Of a DNA stretch of 64,000 bases, positions 11,131 to 21,993 are shown piece by piece. The DNA is from Burkholderiaceae bacterium (lineage in GTDB: Bacteria; Pseudomonadota; Gammaproteobacteria; Burkholderiales; Burkholderiaceae_C): contig JANJVG010000207.1 of the NCBI GenBank assembly GCA_024710165.1, positions 1 to 64,000 on the forward strand. Direction: 5' to 3'. Position 1 is the first letter of the stretch; each line of letters opens with the position of its first letter. The position numbers were made by a program, and so were the translations under genes. Below the pieces are notes generated by a model, which ran no database searches, was not told the origin of the DNA, and saw only the letters and a list, made by a program, of their open reading frames with translations.

Positions 11131-12906
11131 ATGAACCATCTCAAAATCTCGACCCGCCTGATGCTGCTGATCGGACTGATGTCCGTTTTGCTGCTGATCG
11201 TCGGAGGTATTGGCCTGTATGGCACTGACCAGACCAAGGATGGCTTGCGCACCGTGTACGAAGATCGCGCCGTTCCGCTGGGTCAACTGGCGCAGATTCA
11301 GGCCAATCTGCTGGAAAATCGCCTCTCGCTGACCAATGCCATTGCCAGCTTCACACCCGAAGAAGTGAAACGCGTCAGCACCGATATCGAAAAAACCCTT
11401 GCCGACACCGGAAAGCTCTGGAGCGAGTTCATGGCCACCAACCTGACCGTCAAGGAGAAGCAGCTGGCCAGCACCTTCGAGGCCGACCGCGCCCGGTTCA
11501 TGAAAGAGGCGCTCCAACCCACCCTGGCGGCCTTGCAGGCAGGTGATTACGACAAGGCAAAAGCCCTGAACGACACCGTTGTGCGCCCGGGGTACAACCC
11601 CCTTCGGGAGGGCATCAGTGCCCTGGTCACACTGCAGCTGGACGAAGCCAAGGCCGAGTTCCAGGCCGCCAACAGCCGTTACAACTCGATGCGTGCACTG
11701 TCCATCGGGTCCATCGTTTTCGGCATTGCGTTTGGTGTCCTGTTTGGCCTGACCGTGATGCGCAATATCAGCCGCTCGCTGAAAGATGCCGTGGAAGCTG
11801 CCGACGCCGTGGCCCAGGGCGACCTCAGCCGCAGCATTCCGGTCCATGGCAAGGATGAACTCTCCCTGTTGCTGCGCTCGCTCGCGGCCATGCAGCAATC
11901 GCTGGCCCAGGTGGTGCAGCGCGTTCGGCATGGTTCTGAATCCGTGTCCCTGGCCAGCGCCGAAATTGCTCAGGGCAACCAGGATCTCTCGGGTCGCACC
12001 GAAAGCCAGGCCAGCGCACTCGAAGAAACCGCTGCCAGCATGGAGCAGCTGGGCTCAACCGTGCGTCAGAACGCCGACAACGCCCGCGCAGCCAACCAGC
12101 TGGCCCAAAGTGCCAGCACCGTGGCCGTTCAGGGCGGGCAGGTGGTGGCCCAGGTGGTGGACACCATGAAGGGCATCAACGACAGCAGCAAGAAGATTGC
12201 AGACATCATCAGCGTCATTGATGGCATTGCCTTCCAGACCAACATCCTGGCCCTGAATGCGGCCGTGGAAGCCGCCCGCGCGGGCGAACAGGGCCGCGGC
12301 TTTGCCGTGGTGGCCAGCGAAGTGCGCAGTCTGGCCGGGCGCAGCGCCGAAGCCGCCAAGGAAATCAAGGGCCTCATCACCGACAGCGTCAACCGCGTGG
12401 AGGCCGGTAGCGCTCTGGTGGATCAGGCCGGCATCACCATGCAGGAGGTGGTGGGCTCCATTCGCCGTGTAACCGACATTGTTGGTGAAATCAGTGCCGC
12501 CAGCTCCGAGCAGAGTGCGGGCGTATCGCAAGTGGGCGAAGCCGTCACGCAAATGGACCAGGCCACGCAACAGAACGCAGCGCTGGTCGAGGAAATGGCG
12601 GCGGCTGCCAACAGCCTCAGCAGCCAAGCGGCAGAGCTGGTGAGCACGGTGGCCGTGTTCAAGCTCGGATCACAGGAGGCAAACGTGGCCCGAGTGCACC
12701 GCACGCCCACGCCGGCCCCAGCCGCACGCCCGGCCACACCCGTGCCTGCCCCCGCGGCCCGCCCTGCACTGCACAACGCCGGCGCACGGCCTGCACCCCG
12801 CCCCTCTGCACCGGTCAAGACCGCCAAGGTGGCTGCACTCCCCTCCAGCCCGAACAAACCCGCCCCAGCCAATACCGGCAAGGACGACGACTGGGAGTCC
12901 TTCTGA
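11131..12906 (+). CDS. Methyl-accepting chemotaxis protein
   Basis: Two TM segments, HAMP, signalling core [52 protein letters not shown]-terminal DDWESF. Confidence 0.95.
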
Positions 12907-12908
12907 TC

Positions 12909-13787
12909 ATGACCATGCCACTGGCCGACACCCGCATCCTGAGCCTCGCCCTCAACCTGCCAGGCCCCGCCGCGCTGCTGCGCTGCGCCCAACTGGGTGC
13001 GCAGTGCACCAAACTGGAGCCGCCGCCTGCGCCAGGCCACCCGAGTGCTGACCCTATGGGCCTCTATAGCCCGGCTGCCTATGGCGAACTGCACCAGGGC
13101 GTGCGCGTGCTGCACGCCCACCTCAAGACCGACGAAGGCCAGGCCGCGCTGCATGTCGAGCTGGCCCACACCGACGTGCTGATCACCTCGTTTCGCCCCT
13201 CGGCGCTGGCCAAACTCGGTCTGGCCTGGGACGCCCTGCACGCACGCTATCCGCGTCTTTCCCTCGTGCGTATTGTGGGCGCCCTGGGCGAACGCGCCGA
13301 AGAGCCCGGCCATGACCTCACCTACCAGGCCGACGCAGGTCTGGTGGCAGGCGTGCAAATGCCCCCGACCCTGTTTGCCGACATGGCTGGCGCGCTGATG
13401 GCCAGCGAGGCCGTGCTGCAAGCCCTGTTGACCCGGGCCCGGACAGGCACCGGTGTGTGCCTCGACATCGGCCTGGCCGAGGCAGCGCAGTGGCTGGCCC
13501 TGCCGCACATCTGGGGCCTGACCACGCCCGACGGCGACGTGGGCGGTGCGCATGCCGGCTATCGCATCTACCCCTGCGCCGACGGGCGCGTCGCCGTGGC
13601 CGCTCTCGAGCCACATTTCGCAACGCGCCTGTGTGAAGCCGCAGGCCTGGAGGCTCGCGGCGACGCAGAGTATCTGCGCGCACCAGCCACCCACGAGGCC
13701 ATTGCCAGCTTCCTTCAGGCCCAGACCCGTGCACAACTCCAAGCGCTGGCCGAGGCGCGCGATATTCCGCTGCACGCACTGCATTGA
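12909..13787 (+). CDS. CaiB/BaiF (family III) CoA-transferase, short form
   Basis: LALNLPGPAALLRCAQLGAQCTKLEPP, DLTYQADAGLV; 292 aa; 2 bp after the MCP gene. Confidence 0.8.
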   Translation: MTMPLADTRILSLALNLPGPAALLRCAQLGAQCTKLEPPPAPGHPSADPMGLYSPAAYGELHQGVRVLHAHLKTDEGQAALHVELAHTDVLITSFRPSALAKLGLAWDALHARYPRLSLVRIVGALGERAEEPGHDLTYQADAGLVAGVQMPPTLFADMAGALMASEAVLQALLTRARTGTGVCLDIGLAEAAQWLALPHIWGLTTPDGDVGGAHAGYRIYPCADGRVAVAALEPHFATRLCEAAGLEARGDAEYLRAPATHEAIASFLQAQTRAQLQALAEARDIPLHALH

Positions 13788-14183: not shown

Positions 14184-14195
14184 ATTGTTAACAAT
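14184..14195. promoter_or_regulatory. Perfect 12-bp palindrome ATTGTTAACAAT, candidate GntR-family operator
   Basis: TTGT-TA-ACAA fits the TNGT-N-ACNA pattern of FadR/GntR operators; lies 24 bp upstream of the first ATG of the cluster that encodes a GntR regulator. Confidence 0.55.
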
Positions 14196-14218: not shown

Positions 14219-14431
14219 ATGCACAAAGTTCTTTCAGATGTCACGGGGACCGTATGGAAAGTCGAGGTCCAGCCGCAGCAGCAAGTTGCTGCAGGCGAGA
14301 CCTTGCTGATCGTTGAGTCCATGAAGATGGAGATCCCGATCAGTGCGCCCCGTGCGGGCGTCGTACGGGAAATCTTTTTCGCCGAAGGTGAAATCATCGA
14401 AGACGGCCAGGTAGTGGCCCTGCTGGGTTGA
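14219..14431 (+). CDS. Free-standing biotinyl/lipoyl attachment domain protein (biotin carboxyl carrier-like)
   Basis: 70 aa with VESMKMEIPI biotinylation motif. Confidence 0.9.
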   Translation: MHKVLSDVTGTVWKVEVQPQQQVAAGETLLIVESMKMEIPISAPRAGVVREIFFAEGEIIEDGQVVALLG

Positions 14432-14436
14432 TCGGC

Positions 14437-15183
14437 ATGCGACCATCCGATACCCCCATCGATACCTTCACTGCCCTTGAAGGTGCCGTGGCCTTCCGGC
14501 TATTCGCCGACAAGACCGACCCCACCCTCACGGTGCCGGAGCAGATTGCAGCCCGCATCGGGGAGCGCATCCTCGACGACCGGATGCCCAGCGGATCGCG
14601 CATCGGCGAGCAGGAGCTGGCCGATGAATTCAGCGTCAGCCGAGGTCCAATCCGGGAGGCGCTGCGCATCCTGGAGCGCGAAGGCCTGGTCACCATCCTG
14701 GCCCGCCGCGGGGCCATTGTCAGCGAACTAAGCGCCGCCGAACTGCGTGAACTGCAGGAAATCCGCGCCGGTCTCTTTGAAATCGTTGTACGCAAGCTGG
14801 TGGCACGATCACACCCCGACCTGATGGGACTGCTCAGGGCCGGTACACGGCGTCTCATGGAGCAGGCGGGCATGCCCAACGGCGGTGACGCCTATGCGGA
14901 AACGACCTACCGCCTGCTGATCCTGTGCGCCGGGCTCACGGGCAACCAGCGCCTGCAGCGAATGCTCACCGCCTTGTCTCTGCAAACACTGCGCTACAGC
15001 AAGCTGGGGCTGGCATCCGCCGAGCGGCGGCAACGTTCAGCGCAGCTATGGGTCCAGGCTACCGAGGCCCTGGAACAGGGCGATGTGGAGCGCATGGTGT
15101 CCCTCACACGCCAGCGCATCGAGGAATCCGGCGAAGAAGCCATCCGCCAGCTCCAGCCACGTACCCCGGGAACTGCCGCATGA
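14437..15183 (+). CDS. GntR family transcriptional regulator (FadR/VanR-like)
   Basis: Winged HTH: EQIAARIGERILDDRMPSGSRIGEQELADEFSVSRGPIREALRILEREGLVTILARRGAIV; an upstream TTG start at 14428 is possible. Confidence 0.9.
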   Translation: MRPSDTPIDTFTALEGAVAFRLFADKTDPTLTVPEQIAARIGERILDDRMPSGSRIGEQELADEFSVSRGPIREALRILEREGLVTILARRGAIVSELSAAELRELQEIRAGLFEIVVRKLVARSHPDLMGLLRAGTRRLMEQAGMPNGGDAYAETTYRLLILCAGLTGNQRLQRMLTALSLQTLRYSKLGLASAERRQRSAQLWVQATEALEQGDVERMVSLTRQRIEESGEEAIRQLQPRTPGTAA

Positions 15184-16430
15184 CATCCACCACCCCCCAG
15201 GCCGCTGGCCCCCTCGCCGGCATCAAAGTCATCGAGATCTGTTCGACCATTGCCGGTCCGGCCTGCACGCGTCTGCTGGCGGACTTTGGCGCCGATGTCA
15301 TCAAGATCGAGCCACCCGATGGTGACCCGGTGCGCCAGATGGGCCAGCATGTCGGCGATATCTCGCTCTACGCAGCCTCCATCCTGCGCAACAAACGCTC
15401 CATTGCTCTGGACCTTAAGACCGATCAGGGCCGCGCGATCGCTGCCGCCCTGATCGACCACGCCGATATCCTCGTGGAGAACAACCGTCCCGGCGTGATG
15501 GAGCGCCTGGGTCTGGATTACGAGGCTATCTCGGCGCGCAATCCCGGCATTGTCATGGTGCGCATCAGCGGATACGGCCAGACCGGCCCTTATTCCGAAC
15601 GTCCCGGTTACGGCGCCATCTGCGAGGCCGTGGGCGGGGTGCGCCACATGACGGGCGACCCTGACCGCCCGCCGGCGCGCGTGGCACTGGCCACCACCGA
15701 CTACCTCTCCTCGGTCTATGCCGCCTTCGGCGCCCTGGCCGCTATCCATGCACGAGCTTCCACGGGCCGAGGACAGGTGGTGGATGTGGCTCTCTACGAG
15801 ACTGCATTCACCCAGATGGAGCCTGTCGTCCCTGCGTTCGAGAAAATGGGCACCATTCCCAAGCGGGAGGGGCCCAACCTGCCGTCCATGGCGCCCAACA
15901 GCCTGTACCCCACCCGCGATGGCAGCTGGGTGCTGATTGCCGCCAACAGCAACCCGACCTGGAAGCGCCTCGTCGGCCTGATGGAACAGCCCGAACTCCT
16001 GACCGACCCGCGCTTTGCCACTATCCAGCAGCGCGGCCGCCCCGAGAACATGGTGGCCATCGACGCCATCGTGGCACAGTGGACTCGAAAGTTCGACGCC
16101 GAACCGCTGGAAGCCCTGCTGCGCCGGGGCGAAGTGCCTGCATCGCGCGTCTACACCATTGCGGACATCTACGCGGACCCGCACTTCAAGGCACGGGAGA
16201 TGCTGCAGACCGTACCCCATCCGGTGCTGGGGCACACCACACAGGCCGGTGTCGTCCCCCGTCTGTCCTCCACCCCCGGACGCATCCACCGCACCGGGCC
16301 GGACCTGGGCGCAGACGGTCAGGACGTGCTGGAGCACGTGCTCGGCCTGGATGCGTCGCAAATCGACACCCTGGTCAGCGCAGGAGCCGTGCGGCTCCCG
16401 GGCACCCCTCAACCAGCAACGCAAGGATGA
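15180..16430 (+). CDS. CaiB/BaiF (family III) CoA-transferase
   Basis: PLAGIKVIEICSTIAGPACTRLLADFGADVIKIEPPDGDPVR, SIALDLKTDQGRAI; ATG overlaps the GntR stop. Confidence 0.93.
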   Translation: MTSTTPQAAGPLAGIKVIEICSTIAGPACTRLLADFGADVIKIEPPDGDPVRQMGQHVGDISLYAASILRNKRSIALDLKTDQGRAIAAALIDHADILVENNRPGVMERLGLDYEAISARNPGIVMVRISGYGQTGPYSERPGYGAICEAVGGVRHMTGDPDRPPARVALATTDYLSSVYAAFGALAAIHARASTGRGQVVDVALYETAFTQMEPVVPAFEKMGTIPKREGPNLPSMAPNSLYPTRDGSWVLIAANSNPTWKRLVGLMEQPELLTDPRFATIQQRGRPENMVAIDAIVAQWTRKFDAEPLEALLRRGEVPASRVYTIADIYADPHFKAREMLQTVPHPVLGHTTQAGVVPRLSSTPGRIHRTGPDLGADGQDVLEHVLGLDASQIDTLVSAGAVRLPGTPQPATQG

Positions 16431-16434
16431 CGCC

Positions 16435-17439
16435 ATGAACCACCCTTCAATGGACCGCCGCCAGGCGCTCGGCCTGATCGCGGGCTCTGCCCTGTTTCCC
16501 GCACTGGCCCATGCGCAGGCCGAAGCCTGGAAGCCAAGCCAGTCACTGACCTACAACATCGGCGTCGCCGCAGGGGGATCGGTCGACCTGTATGCGCGCG
16601 GCATCAAGACCGGTCTGGAATCGCTCGGCCTGCTCAACGGCCAGGCCATGCTGACGGACAACAAGCCCGGCGCGGCCGGTCTGTTGTCGCTGCAGCAACT
16701 GCAACGCAACACCGGCAATGCCCACCACCTGGGCACCTTCCACACCGGCAGCATCGCAGGGCAGGCCACCGGCATTCTGAAGGCCGATATGCGCCTGTTC
16801 ACACCCGTGGCCATGCTGGTGGAAGAGACCACGCTGGTGGCGGTGCGCGAGGATTCTCCGCTGCGCAGCGCCAAGGACCTGATCGAGGCGCTGCGCAGCG
16901 ACCCTACTTCGCTGAAGATCGCCGTGGCACCGCTGCGGGGTCTGAACATCCACCTGGCCATCGTCAAACCGCTCAAGGCGGCCGGCGTGGACGTGGCGCG
17001 GCTGACCATCGCCCCTTTCCGCTCCTCGGGCGAGTCAATGACCGCGCTGCTCGGCGGCCATGTCGATGTGGTCTCGGCCACAGGCCCCACCGTCGTGCCC
17101 ATGGTGCAGGGCGGCAAGGTGCGCATGATCGCCAGCGCGGCCCCCGTGCGCGGCACTGGTCCGCTGGCGGGCGTGGCCACCTGGCGCGAGCAGGGCGTGC
17201 CGGCCGACTACGTGAGCTACAACGGTGTGCTGCTGCCGCCCGGCGTAAACGCCGACCAGATCCGTTACTGGGAAAACGCGCTGCGCAAGGTGTCCGAAAC
17301 GCCCGACTGGATCGCACTGGTCGAAAAGTCGGGCAACAAGCCCATGTTCAAGGGCTACGTGGACTCGCACCGCTACCTGCAATCTGAATTCACAGCCACC
17401 CAGGCCCTCGTGGCCCAACTGGGACAGGATGCCAAATGA
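16435..17439 (+). CDS. Bug/TctC family periplasmic solute-binding protein
   Basis: Signal peptide MDRRQALGLIAGSALFPALAHAQ, then YNIGVAAGGSVDLYARGI...DNKPGAAGLLS. Confidence 0.88.
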   Translation: MNHPSMDRRQALGLIAGSALFPALAHAQAEAWKPSQSLTYNIGVAAGGSVDLYARGIKTGLESLGLLNGQAMLTDNKPGAAGLLSLQQLQRNTGNAHHLGTFHTGSIAGQATGILKADMRLFTPVAMLVEETTLVAVREDSPLRSAKDLIEALRSDPTSLKIAVAPLRGLNIHLAIVKPLKAAGVDVARLTIAPFRSSGESMTALLGGHVDVVSATGPTVVPMVQGGKVRMIASAAPVRGTGPLAGVATWREQGVPADYVSYNGVLLPPGVNADQIRYWENALRKVSETPDWIALVEKSGNKPMFKGYVDSHRYLQSEFTATQALVAQLGQDAK

Positions 17440-19034
17440 ACGCAAACCACCCTACCCCGCGCAACCTTCCCGGCACCTTCGAACCTGCAGGCGAATGGCA
17501 GGCCGAACTCACCGAACTGCAGCAGCGCCGGGCCCATGCCCTGGCCATGGGAGGCCCCGAGGCGCTGGCCAAGTTCAAGGCCGGCGGTCGCATGAACGCA
17601 CGCGAGCGCATCGACCAGCTGCTCGATGCAGACACGTTCCGTGAGGTAGGTCGCATCGCCGGCAAGGGCCACTACAGCCAGGACGGCCACTTCACGCGGC
17701 TGGACCCGACCAACGCCATCACCGGCACCGGCCGCATCGAGGGCCGCAAGGTGGCCCTGCATGTGGACGACTTCAGCATCCGGGCAGGCTCGTCCGAGGC
17801 CACCATCGCCGACAAGTGGATCTACATCGAGCGCATGGCGCACCAGCTGCGTATGCCGCTGATCCGGCTGGTCGATTCGGCCGGCGGCAGCGTCAAGCTG
17901 CTCATGCAGATCGGCGGCACCAAGATCCCGGAATATCCCAGCTGGCCCGCCAACGAACTGCTCAAGACCGTACCCGTGGTGGGCGTGGCGCTGGGGGCCT
18001 GCGCAGGCCAGGGCGCGATCAAAGTGCTTTCGTCCCATTTCTCCGTGATGGTGCGCGAACAGGCCCAGGTCATGGCGGCCGGCCCCCATGTGGTGCGTCA
18101 GGCCTACGGCACCGATGTGGACAAGAACGACCTGGGCGGCCACTCCGTGCACCGCAAGAGCGCACTGGTGCACAACGAGGCCGAGGACGAGGCAGACGCC
18201 CTGACGCAGGTACGCCGCTTCCTGTCGTACCTGCCGCGCAGCATCTACCACCTGCCCCCGGTCACCCCGGCCACCGACGAACCGCACCGCGCCGACGATT
18301 GGCTCAAGGACGCCATTCCCCACGACCGCCGCAAAATCTACGACCCACGCCGCATCATCGCTGCGGTCCTGGACCAGGACTCGGTGTTCGAGATTGGCCG
18401 CTGGCAAGGCGGCTCGGTGATCACGGCACTCGCGCGTCTGCGGGGCATCCCGGTGGGCGTGATTGCCAACGACCCCAAGGTCCAGGGCGGCGCCATGACC
18501 ACCCAGGCCGCCTACAAGATGGAGCGACACATCCAGCTGTGCAGCCAGTTCGGCCTGCCGGTGGTCAACTTCGTCGACCAGCCAGGCAACCAGACCGGTA
18601 TCGAGGCGGAACTCGGCGGCACCCTGCTGGGTGCCACGCGGGTCTCGCATGCCTTACACGAATGCCAATCGCCCTGGATGTCCATCCTGATCCGGCGCTG
18701 CTTCGGCATGGCGGGCGCGCTGCACGCCCCCAAATACGGCGAAGCACTCAACCTGCGCTACGCCTGGCCATCGGCTCGCTGGGGATCCATCCCGATCGAG
18801 GGCGGCGTCATGGCGGCACACAAGGCCGAGATCGAAGCCGCACCCGACCCCGCAGCCAAGCGCGCCGAGCTGGAGGCGTTCTATCTGAACATGACCTCGC
18901 CGTTCCGCACAGCGGAGAAGTTCGGGATCCTCGACATCATCGATCCGCGCGAGACCCGCTCCATTCTGTGCGACTGGATCGAGGACGCCTGGGAACGCGT
19001 GCGCACCGACCGTCTGGAACCCACAGGCGCTTGA
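17436..19034 (+). CDS. Acyl-CoA carboxylase/decarboxylase carboxyltransferase subunit
   Basis: MNARERIDQLLDADTFREVG, PQAAYKME, FVDQPGNQTGIEAELGG, GGVMAAHKAEIE; 532 aa. Confidence 0.92.
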   Translation: MNANHPTPRNLPGTFEPAGEWQAELTELQQRRAHALAMGGPEALAKFKAGGRMNARERIDQLLDADTFREVGRIAGKGHYSQDGHFTRLDPTNAITGTGRIEGRKVALHVDDFSIRAGSSEATIADKWIYIERMAHQLRMPLIRLVDSAGGSVKLLMQIGGTKIPEYPSWPANELLKTVPVVGVALGACAGQGAIKVLSSHFSVMVREQAQVMAAGPHVVRQAYGTDVDKNDLGGHSVHRKSALVHNEAEDEADALTQVRRFLSYLPRSIYHLPPVTPATDEPHRADDWLKDAIPHDRRKIYDPRRIIAAVLDQDSVFEIGRWQGGSVITALARLRGIPVGVIANDPKVQGGAMTTQAAYKMERHIQLCSQFGLPVVNFVDQPGNQTGIEAELGGTLLGATRVSHALHECQSPWMSILIRRCFGMAGALHAPKYGEALNLRYAWPSARWGSIPIEGGVMAAHKAEIEAAPDPAAKRAELEAFYLNMTSPFRTAEKFGILDIIDPRETRSILCDWIEDAWERVRTDRLEPTGA

Positions 19035-19040
19035 TCTTCC

Positions 19041-20054
19041 ATGCTGAACGCTGCCACCCGCTGGACACGGAGCCAGGCACGGGGCGTCATGCTGTGCGCC
19101 ATGCTGGCAGTCACAGCCATGTTCGTTTCCCAAAACCATGGGGGGCCTCAGCTGCTGTACGCGCTGTTGCTGGGGCTGGCCTTCCATTTTCTGTCGCAGG
19201 ACGATAGGCTGCGCCCGGGCATCGACTTTTGTTCGCGCACCCTGCTGCGTGCAGGCGTGGCGCTGCTGGGGCTGCGCATCACCCTGGCACAGGTGGCAGA
19301 TCTGGGCTGGCATGCCGGGGGTACGGCTGTTCTCTGTGTGGTGCTGACCATCACGCTGGGCGTGCTGCTGGCACGCTGGCTGCGGCGACCCGTGACCGAG
19401 GGACTGGTGTCCGGCGCATCGGTCGGGATTTGCGGCGCATCGGCGGCACTGGCGGTGTCCTCTGTGCTGCCGCAAACACCCGGGAACGAGCGATTCACGC
19501 TGCTCACGGTCGTTGGCGTGACGCTGATGTCCACCGCTGCCATGGTGCTGTACCCGCTGATGCTCAAGGCAGGCGGAGTCCCGCTGCAGCAGGCAGGTGT
19601 TTTTCTCGGCGCCACGGTGCACGACGTGGCCCAGGTGGTGGCGGCCGGCATGCTGCTGTCCACCCCGGGGGAAACGGCTGCAGTGGACAGCGCTACGGTG
19701 GTCAAGCTGCTGCGCGTGGCCATGCTCATGCCCGTGGTTCTGATCATCGCTGCCCTGTACGGGCGTTCTGGCACCCGCCGCAACGGCGCGGCCGCAGGAT
19801 CGAGCCTGGTCCCGGGCTTTCTGATTGCCTTCATTGCTTTCATGCTGCTGTCCAGTTCGGGCTGGATCAGCCCGGCGCTGGTACAGACCGCCGGCGATGC
19901 CTCGCGCATCCTGCTGGTCATGGCCATTGCCGCCGCCGGCGTCAAAACATCTTTTGCGGATCTGCTTCAACTCGGCTGGGCACCGGTGATGATGCTGGCC
20001 GCCGAGACGGCATTCATCGCACTCGTCGCAGCCACCAGCCTGGCGCTGGCCTGA
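19041..20054 (+). CDS. YeiH/UPF0324-type inner membrane protein (putative sulfate/anion exporter family)
   Basis: Multi-TM; LRPGIDFCSRTLLRAGVALLGLRITLAQV, GASVGICGASAALAVSSVLP, GVFLGATVHDVAQVVAAG. Confidence 0.85.
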   Translation: MLNAATRWTRSQARGVMLCAMLAVTAMFVSQNHGGPQLLYALLLGLAFHFLSQDDRLRPGIDFCSRTLLRAGVALLGLRITLAQVADLGWHAGGTAVLCVVLTITLGVLLARWLRRPVTEGLVSGASVGICGASAALAVSSVLPQTPGNERFTLLTVVGVTLMSTAAMVLYPLMLKAGGVPLQQAGVFLGATVHDVAQVVAAGMLLSTPGETAAVDSATVVKLLRVAMLMPVVLIIAALYGRSGTRRNGAAAGSSLVPGFLIAFIAFMLLSSSGWISPALVQTAGDASRILLVMAIAAAGVKTSFADLLQLGWAPVMMLAAETAFIALVAATSLALA

Positions 20055-20083: not shown

Positions 20084-21793
20084 TCACGCTTGCGGTGTTG
20101 CAGGCCTGAAACGATCGATCACATACCTGCTCATGCCCTTGGCCAGCTCTTGCTCGCCATGGAACACTGTGCCCAGGCCTTCCATGCGCAGCATCTGCGA
20201 TTCGGTCTCGCTGTGGGTTCGCAGCACGATTTCGATGTCGGGGTTCAGTGCACGGGCGGTCTCCACCATCTGGCGCACGTTCAACGGGTCGGGCGTGGCC
20301 ACCACCAGCATGGCAGCGTCGGCGATATGGGCCTGGATGAGCACGGCAGGGTCGGCCGCATTGCCTGACACCGCCGCCATACCCCGCTTGCGCAGGTCTT
20401 CGACCAGTTCGCGGTTCTGCTCCGCCACCACATAGGGAATGCCGCCTTCATCGAGCGAGCGGGCGATGCGGCGGCCCACCCGCCCATAGCCCACCAGAAC
20501 CACCTGGCCCTGCAGGTATTTGCGTTCGGTGCTCATGGGCAGCTCGGCGTAAGGGTCGTCCCGCTGCTCCAGGCGGCGGGCCAGGTCGGAGCGCACCAGA
20601 ACCCAGCGGCGCACCGGCTCCACCGCGGCAAACAGGAAAGGATTGAGCGCAATCGATATCAGCGCGCCCGCCAGCACCAGGCTCATGCCCTCACGGGGCA
20701 GCAGACCCAGCGACAACCCCAGACCTGCCAGAATGAACGAGAACTCCCCAATCTGCGCGAGGCTTGCCGCCACCGTGAGGGCGGTATTGAGCGGGTAGCG
20801 CAAGGCCAGCACCAGGCACAGCGCGGCAATCGACTTGCCGACGATGATGATGCCCACCACGCCAAGCACACGGGTGGGTTCATCCAGCACAATCTGCGGC
20901 TCAAAGAGCATGCCCACCGACACAAAAAACAGCACCGAAAACGCATCGCGCAGCGGCAACGACTCCTGCGCCGCCCGGTGGCTGAACTGGGATTCGCGCA
21001 TCACCATGCCTGCAAAAAAGGCACCCAGGGCAAACGACACGCTGAACAGGCCGGCTGCGCCATAGGCAATACCGATAGCGCAGGCCACCACAGACAGCGT
21101 GAACAACTCGCGCGAGCCGGTTTTGGCCACTTGCCACAGCAGCCAGGGCAAGGCGCGCCGACCAAAAACAAGCATCAGCGCAATGAAGGCCGAGACCTGC
21201 AGCAGGGTCTGGCCGATGGTTTGCCACAACGGCTGATCAGGCATGGCGCCTGCGGGCACCGGTCCGCCCAGCATTCCGGCCAGCGGGGGCAGCAGCACCA
21301 GCACCAGCACGGTGGCCAGGTCCTCAACCACCAGCCAGCCCACGGCAATGCGCCCGTTCATGCTGTCAAGCACGCCCCGCGACTCCAGCGCCTTCAGCAA
21401 TACCACCGTGCTGGCACACGACAGCGACACCCCGAACACCAGCCCCTGCCCCCAGGTCCAGCCCCACAACGAAGCCAAGCCCATGCCCAACAGCGTGGCC
21501 AGGCCCATCTGCACCACAGCCCCCGGGATGGCAATGCGCTTGACCGCCATCAAATCGCTGAGCGAGAAGTGCAGGCCCACGCCAAACATCAGCAGCATCA
21601 CGCCGATCTCGGAGAGCTGCGCAGCGATGTGCACATCGGCCACAAAACCCGGCGTGGCCGGGCCGATGATGATGCCCGCGATCAGGTAGCCCACCAGCGC
21701 CGGCAGCTTGACCCGCTCGGCAACAAAGCCCAGCACCAGTGCGATGCCAAAGCCTGCCGCAAGCGTCGTGATCAGGGGAAAGTTGTGTTCCAT
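20084..21793 (-). CDS. ybaL: CPA2 monovalent cation:proton antiporter with RCK/TrkA-N domain (YbaL/KefB-like)
   Basis: MEHNFPLITTLAAGFGIALVLGFVAERVKLPALVGYLIAGI; VVLVGYGRVGRRIARSLDEGGIPYVVAEQNRE. Confidence 0.9.
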   Translation of the reverse strand: MEHNFPLITTLAAGFGIALVLGFVAERVKLPALVGYLIAGIIIGPATPGFVADVHIAAQLSEIGVMLLMFGVGLHFSLSDLMAVKRIAIPGAVVQMGLATLLGMGLASLWGWTWGQGLVFGVSLSCASTVVLLKALESRGVLDSMNGRIAVGWLVVEDLATVLVLVLLPPLAGMLGGPVPAGAMPDQPLWQTIGQTLLQVSAFIALMLVFGRRALPWLLWQVAKTGSRELFTLSVVACAIGIAYGAAGLFSVSFALGAFFAGMVMRESQFSHRAAQESLPLRDAFSVLFFVSVGMLFEPQIVLDEPTRVLGVVGIIIVGKSIAALCLVLALRYPLNTALTVAASLAQIGEFSFILAGLGLSLGLLPREGMSLVLAGALISIALNPFLFAAVEPVRRWVLVRSDLARRLEQRDDPYAELPMSTERKYLQGQVVLVGYGRVGRRIARSLDEGGIPYVVAEQNRELVEDLRKRGMAAVSGNAADPAVLIQAHIADAAMLVVATPDPLNVRQMVETARALNPDIEIVLRTHSETESQMLRMEGLGTVFHGEQELAKGMSRYVIDRFRPATPQA

Positions 21794-21993
21794 GGCGTCC
21801 AGGGACGAGACGGGGCGGACCCATGACGCGGCCGATGCACGCATACACCAAGCCCATCGTCATCAGGATGGGCTCATTCTGTGGGACTTGGCGTTCTTCT
21901 TCAACCCAGGTTTCCCCATGAACCGCACCGAAAAAAGCGCCCCATGAACTGGGGGAGTGCGCCCATGCGCCAAAGCGCACGCCGGGCGCACGC

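Follow-up and report, generated by a model that had tools for sequence, protein, structure and literature searches.

The 64,000-nt stretch of Burkholderiaceae DNA analysed here (the window) carries, at positions 14219-20054, six tightly packed genes that together with an upstream palindrome look like a single operon. We consider, with a probability of about one half, that these genes serve to utilise a carboxylate and that their central enzyme is an acyl-CoA carboxylase which has no biotin carboxylase (BC) of its own and borrows AccC, the BC of fatty-acid synthesis. In the proposed pathway, the Bug receptor would capture a carboxylic acid (a diacid or hydroxy-acid is one possibility), which would presumably be taken up via a TctA-type permease encoded elsewhere in the genome, and CaiB would turn the acid into its CoA thioester with succinyl-CoA or a similar compound as the CoA donor. 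Once biotinylated, the 70-aa carrier would be charged in trans with ATP and bicarbonate, most likely by the housekeeping AccC, and the carboxyltransferase (CT) would pass the carboxyl group on to the acyl-CoA; the resulting product would feed into central metabolism. The GntR regulator probably binds ATTGTTAACAAT and would keep the operon repressed as long as the acid or its CoA ester is lacking, and YeiH would act as an accessory anion transporter. The direction of the reaction, AccC as the partner and the identity of the acid are what we infer from the evidence below.

All six genes, as well as their tight packing, were confirmed as given in a preliminary description of this DNA. The first gene (14219-14431; plus strand, like the other five) encodes a free biotin carboxyl carrier protein (BCCP) of 70 aa (PF00364, 59.8 bits) with the MKM-type biotinylation motif ESMKME, in which Lys36 (codon 14324-14326) is expected to be the biotinylated residue; among solved structures it is closest to 1z6h, the small Biotin/Lipoyl Attachment Protein. 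It is followed by genes for a GntR-family regulator of the FCD subgroup (14437-15183, best start ATG 14437; PF00392 and PF07729), a CaiB/BaiF family III CoA-transferase (15180-16430; PF02515, 419.6 bits), a Bug/TctC periplasmic solute receptor whose N terminus carries a signal-like sequence (16435-17439, best start 16435; PF03401, 95.6 bits), among whose structural matches Bug and TctC structures appear, a biotin-dependent CT of 532 aa (17436-19034; PF01039 over its full length, 267.4 bits) and an accessory YeiH-type membrane protein (19041-20054; PF03601, 206.3 bits). The successive junctions are a 5-nt gap, a 4-nt overlap, a 4-nt gap, a 4-nt overlap and a 6-nt gap, and the 3′ boundary is set by a convergent Na+/H+-exchanger-TrkA gene on the minus strand (20084-21844). 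About 400 nt upstream of the operon lies a second, short family III CoA-transferase gene (12909-13787, 292 aa, PF02515), which begins 3 nt past a TarH-type chemoreceptor gene (11131-12906). The assembly to which the window belongs comprises 3.8 Mb in 225 contigs and is 94% complete.

Searching for the CT across 84,980 species genomes led to 56 related loci, many of them metagenome-assembled and many from incomplete genomes, mostly in Comamonadaceae and other Burkholderiales, and also in Bordetella and Luteimonas. The order BCCP-GntR-CaiB-Bug-CT was kept in most of them, and since it is common to many public genomes it cannot be put down to chance; the neighbourhood search suggested earlier thus revealed conserved co-occurrence in Comamonadaceae and their relatives. 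Among 26 sampled genomes of the same genus, the CT had a match at E <= 1e-100 in only one other, a 47% paralogue, which implied that the operon is an accessory element in the genus. YeiH is an occasional add-on and not a core gene: of the 56 loci fetched, some of them incomplete, only 11 have it after the CT, and several clusters near the window's have unrelated genes at that place, with the rest of the cluster kept. The gene itself stands as a member of the cluster here; its product matches PF03601 but, with 127.7 bits against TIGR00698 (putative sulfate exporter), scores far below the cut-off of 232.6 bits, and its predicted structure (mean pLDDT 52) was too poor for fold comparison. The sulfonated substrate that had been thought conceivable found no support beyond this non-core gene.

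The step that activates the acid has been exchanged repeatedly. At L053, L055, L056, L057 and L066, an AMP-forming acyl-CoA ligase confirmed by Pfam takes the place of CaiB, and L047, L050, L051, L060 and L073 were assigned to the same ligase group from ORFs at the same position that cluster with the confirmed ones; at L060 the gene immediately preceding the CT encodes, in addition, a SucCD-like ADP-forming ligase. On the CT tree, with labels assigned by hand, the CoA activator switches at least four times. The exchange of CaiB for CoA ligases is good evidence that the substrate of the CT is a CoA ester formed in place from a free acid, and activation of an imported acid to its CoA ester is well supported by these gene comparisons. 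Uptake genes also differ among the relatives, which carry Bug, TRAP DctP/DctM (L078) or an SBP5 ABC system (L070), and a TctA permease is encoded in the window's own genome. These two kinds of replacement back the previously proposed scheme of acid uptake, CoA activation and biotin-dependent carboxyl transfer. The best solved relatives of CaiB are formyl-CoA-transferase-like proteins and SUGCT, and in the region of the catalytic Asp a TTD segment aligns with the TD of SUGCT, as in family III CoA-transferases. Homology comparison found no close characterised relative of Bug or CaiB that would point to the substrate. The best lead to it is a fuller cluster in two marine or estuarine Burkholderiaceae MAGs (L074, 734-11524, and L075) with the order TctB-TctA-LeuC-LeuD-BCCP-Bug-IclR-BC-CaiB-CT, after which come a gene resembling threonate dehydrogenase and one of the TauE family; in this single lineage, TctAB and the LeuCD-type dehydratase hint at a hydroxy- or unsaturated dicarboxylate.

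The CT shares with the PccB/AccD-type acyl-CoA carboxylases the fold family (PF01039), alignment over the full length, a CoA-ester substrate and a biotinylated carrier. It differs from them in being only 28% identical to the PccB of its own genome and in having altered motifs around both active-site loops, and its operon encodes a free 70-aa carrier and no BC. The motifs AGGSVKLL, CAGxGAxKVL, FGMAG and WPSARWGSIPIEGG are invariant in all family members and unlike those of propionyl-CoA carboxylase, and the position equivalent to Asp422 of Streptomyces PccB, which we take to be the substrate-selecting residue, is Ala or Gly. In the CT tree, computed in quick mode with long outgroup branches, for which reason deep placements were not relied on, the family forms its own clade apart from PccB. 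A standard propionyl-CoA carboxylase, an identification that would have overturned the preliminary description, is ruled out by the distinct motifs and the separate clade. Another CT with no BC nearby, a frame of ~615 aa that is 61-65% identical over about 350 aa to a fused BC-CT protein of the window's own genome, was seen in two Limnohabitans genomes and one Hydrogenophaga (L125, 6169-7236; L126, 6811-7824; L127, 6896-7909). In Bordetella petrii (L128, 6012-8755), a cousin CT, 48.5% identical, lies between Bug-like and carrier-like genes, likewise with no BC nearby.

Possession of a BC has been described as what distinguishes carboxylases from both decarboxylases and transcarboxylases (PMC3199775). 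As the preliminary description held, no BC gene was found within the operon, and none was found in any assessable member of the window's clade (23 rows). Across the wider family, 40 loci could be assessed and 10 of them have a standalone BC next to the CT, absence being scored only at loci judged to have enough flank; an adjacent BC, which as a routine feature would have spoken against the earlier account, is seen in about a quarter of the family and never in the window's clade. Eight of these ten BCs were compared and fell into three lineages that are 41-47% identical to one another, and an eleventh locus, L063, has an MccA-like BC. The presence of a BC changes at least seven times on the CT tree (labels again assigned by hand), and in the ligase-bearing clade L051 and L050 have the same layout, one with a BC and one without. 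Whole-genome searches found the lineage-A BC in no genomes other than those that have it in the cluster. When BCs and CTs were paired by position in 20 cluster-bearing genomes (distance 6.5 kb, a proximity that cannot prove a working partnership), most of the other CTs had a BC nearby, and the BC that usually remained unpaired was an AccC-like protein of ~454 aa. A dedicated BC elsewhere in the BC-less genomes was rejected, as only AccC-like and fused subunits were found; the search for a distant partner proposed earlier thus pointed, in most cases, to an AccC-like protein. AccC is encoded in the window's own genome, where it is available to charge the carrier and probably does so.

A partial precedent for such sharing is found in mycobacteria, where one BC subunit interacts with several CTs (PMC4347857). 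In that system the BC and carrier domains of AccA3 are fused and shared together, whereas the window operon keeps its carrier and would borrow the BC only. The Bacillus-type three-part carboxylase (BLAP/YngHB, PDB 1z6h) has a minimal biotin-domain carrier of the same size, and L057 resembles it in combining ligase, CT, BC and carrier in one operon; the window operon differs in lacking a BC and in having a CoA-transferase in place of the ligase.

The partner could instead be a fused BC-BCCP subunit of the same genome. The remaining separate CTs found there have BC-BCCP subunits of their own alongside, and the assembly contains four BC-BCCP subunits versus three matching separate CTs besides the window CT. 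On the 7.5-kb contig C127 (1-7541, L122), a 674-aa BC-BCCP at the contig edge is followed by a FadD11-like ligase, and no CT match was found on this contig. This subunit could therefore serve the window CT in place of AccC, which counts against the borrowing of AccC, but we regard such a partnership as very unlikely: only about 39 bases of the contig precede the BC match, and the subunit's own CT may sit just upstream in a gap; the fused subunit already has its own carrier domain; and all fused BC subunits detected in two Limnohabitans genomes, G068 and G069, have a CT close by.

The lack of a BC, together with a CoA-transferase, a CT and a carrier that resemble glutaconyl-CoA decarboxylase and its CoA-transferase, could also be taken to mean that the operon encodes a decarboxylase. 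CaiB would then activate a malonate-like or glutaconate-like diacid and the CT would move its carboxyl group to biotin, with the carboxybiotin discharged by AccC working in reverse, making ATP, or by slow release; the net conversion of the diacid to acyl-CoA and CO2 would need no extra genes, as the acyl-CoA feeds central metabolism directly. Known biotin decarboxylases discharge carboxybiotin via an OadB-type membrane subunit. The Na+-translocating glutaconyl-CoA and methylmalonyl-CoA decarboxylases and malonate decarboxylases share with the window operon a CT, a free carrier, the lack of a BC and a CoA (or ACP) transferase, but the PF03977 membrane (beta) subunit had no match in the window's own assembly or in the 20 cluster-bearing genomes, in which positive controls were found, and the classical Na+-pumping biotin decarboxylase was rejected on this ground. 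As PF03977 is absent, the lack of a BC does not by itself give a working decarboxylase, since the carrier still needs to be discharged. The CT is moreover only distantly related to the solved glutaconyl-CoA decarboxylase alpha subunits, and BCs of unrelated lineages became neighbours of the CT in relatives, so we judge a decarboxylase unlikely. YeiH is a multi-spanning membrane protein whose gene closes the operon, 6 nt downstream of the CT, and it could be imagined to stand in for OadB and discharge carboxybiotin. This is highly improbable, given that many close clusters lack YeiH but have all the other genes and that Salmonella YeiH is required for sulfite resistance (PMC12880088).

A transcarboxylase, in which the carrier would shuttle the carboxyl group between two CoA esters, with the window CT serving both or working with another CT, would be suited by the second CT found in or beside the cluster at five loci (L056, 15874-17409; L058, 5629-7074; L059, 7707-9173; L066, 5679-6218; L078, 760-2325 and 10787-11239). 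The Propionibacterium transcarboxylase (12S/5S/1.3S) likewise has a related CT (1on3), a free carrier and no BC; the window operon, however, lacks the second, oxaloacetate-type CT partner. Most related clusters have a single CT, as does the window operon, and the other separate CTs of its genome adjoin their own BC-BCCP subunits, which makes this explanation distinctly doubtful.

The unrelated BCs beside the CTs of relatives, the left-over AccC-like BC and the absence of PF03977 together make an acyl-CoA carboxylase borrowing AccC the best reading. The preliminary description had taken the missing BC to permit a decarboxylation or transcarboxylation route; this idea is weakened by the BCs beside relatives' CTs, the absence of PF03977 and the availability of AccC. 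Two points count against the carboxylase: the BC is missing from the whole of the window's clade, as would also be expected if no BC were needed, and the operon has no downstream enzyme for a carboxylated product. A tentative and unlikely alternative is a BC-independent enzyme in which a soluble CT and a free carrier would decarboxylate or transcarboxylate a CoA-activated acid without ATP or an OadB-type pump. Certain relatives would then have recruited a BC secondarily, one conceivable purpose being to regain ATP from carboxybiotin.

Regulation of the operon was approached through the perfect palindrome ATTGTTAACAAT (14184-14195), which ends 23 nt before the first gene and is likely the operator of the GntR regulator. 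The preliminary description had reported the regulator gene correctly and did not mention this conserved palindrome just upstream. At 34 related loci with differing gene orders, exact ATTGTYRACAAT precedes BCCP or GntR; it occurs only once in the window's own assembly, where the reversed-pattern control gave zero. The occurrence in 34 loci and the single genomic copy tie the regulator to the operon and indicate a single-operon regulon in this genome. The operon is probably repressor-controlled, and the repressor action itself is what we infer. Further members of the regulon were sought and rejected, as the own genome has one operator copy only and the extra sites examined in four other genomes adjoin unrelated GntR genes. 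At L117, L118, L119 and L120, ATTGTYRACAAT lies beside other GntR genes whose products are 31-38% identical to the window GntR; several GntR subfamilies may thus share this operator.

No account of the BCCP-GntR-CaiB-Bug-CT cluster was found in the open-access literature, and it apparently represents an uncharacterised, conserved catabolic module of Burkholderiales. In this module the CoA-activation step is swapped between unrelated enzymes, and a neighbouring BC, drawn from unrelated lineages, is present in some branches of the CT tree and missing from others. The module makes it possible to ask whether the housekeeping AccC can serve a proteobacterial acyl-CoA carboxylase and, failing that, what becomes of carboxybiotin. 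With its sharp operator and single target operon, the regulator would provide an easy reporter for finding the acid.
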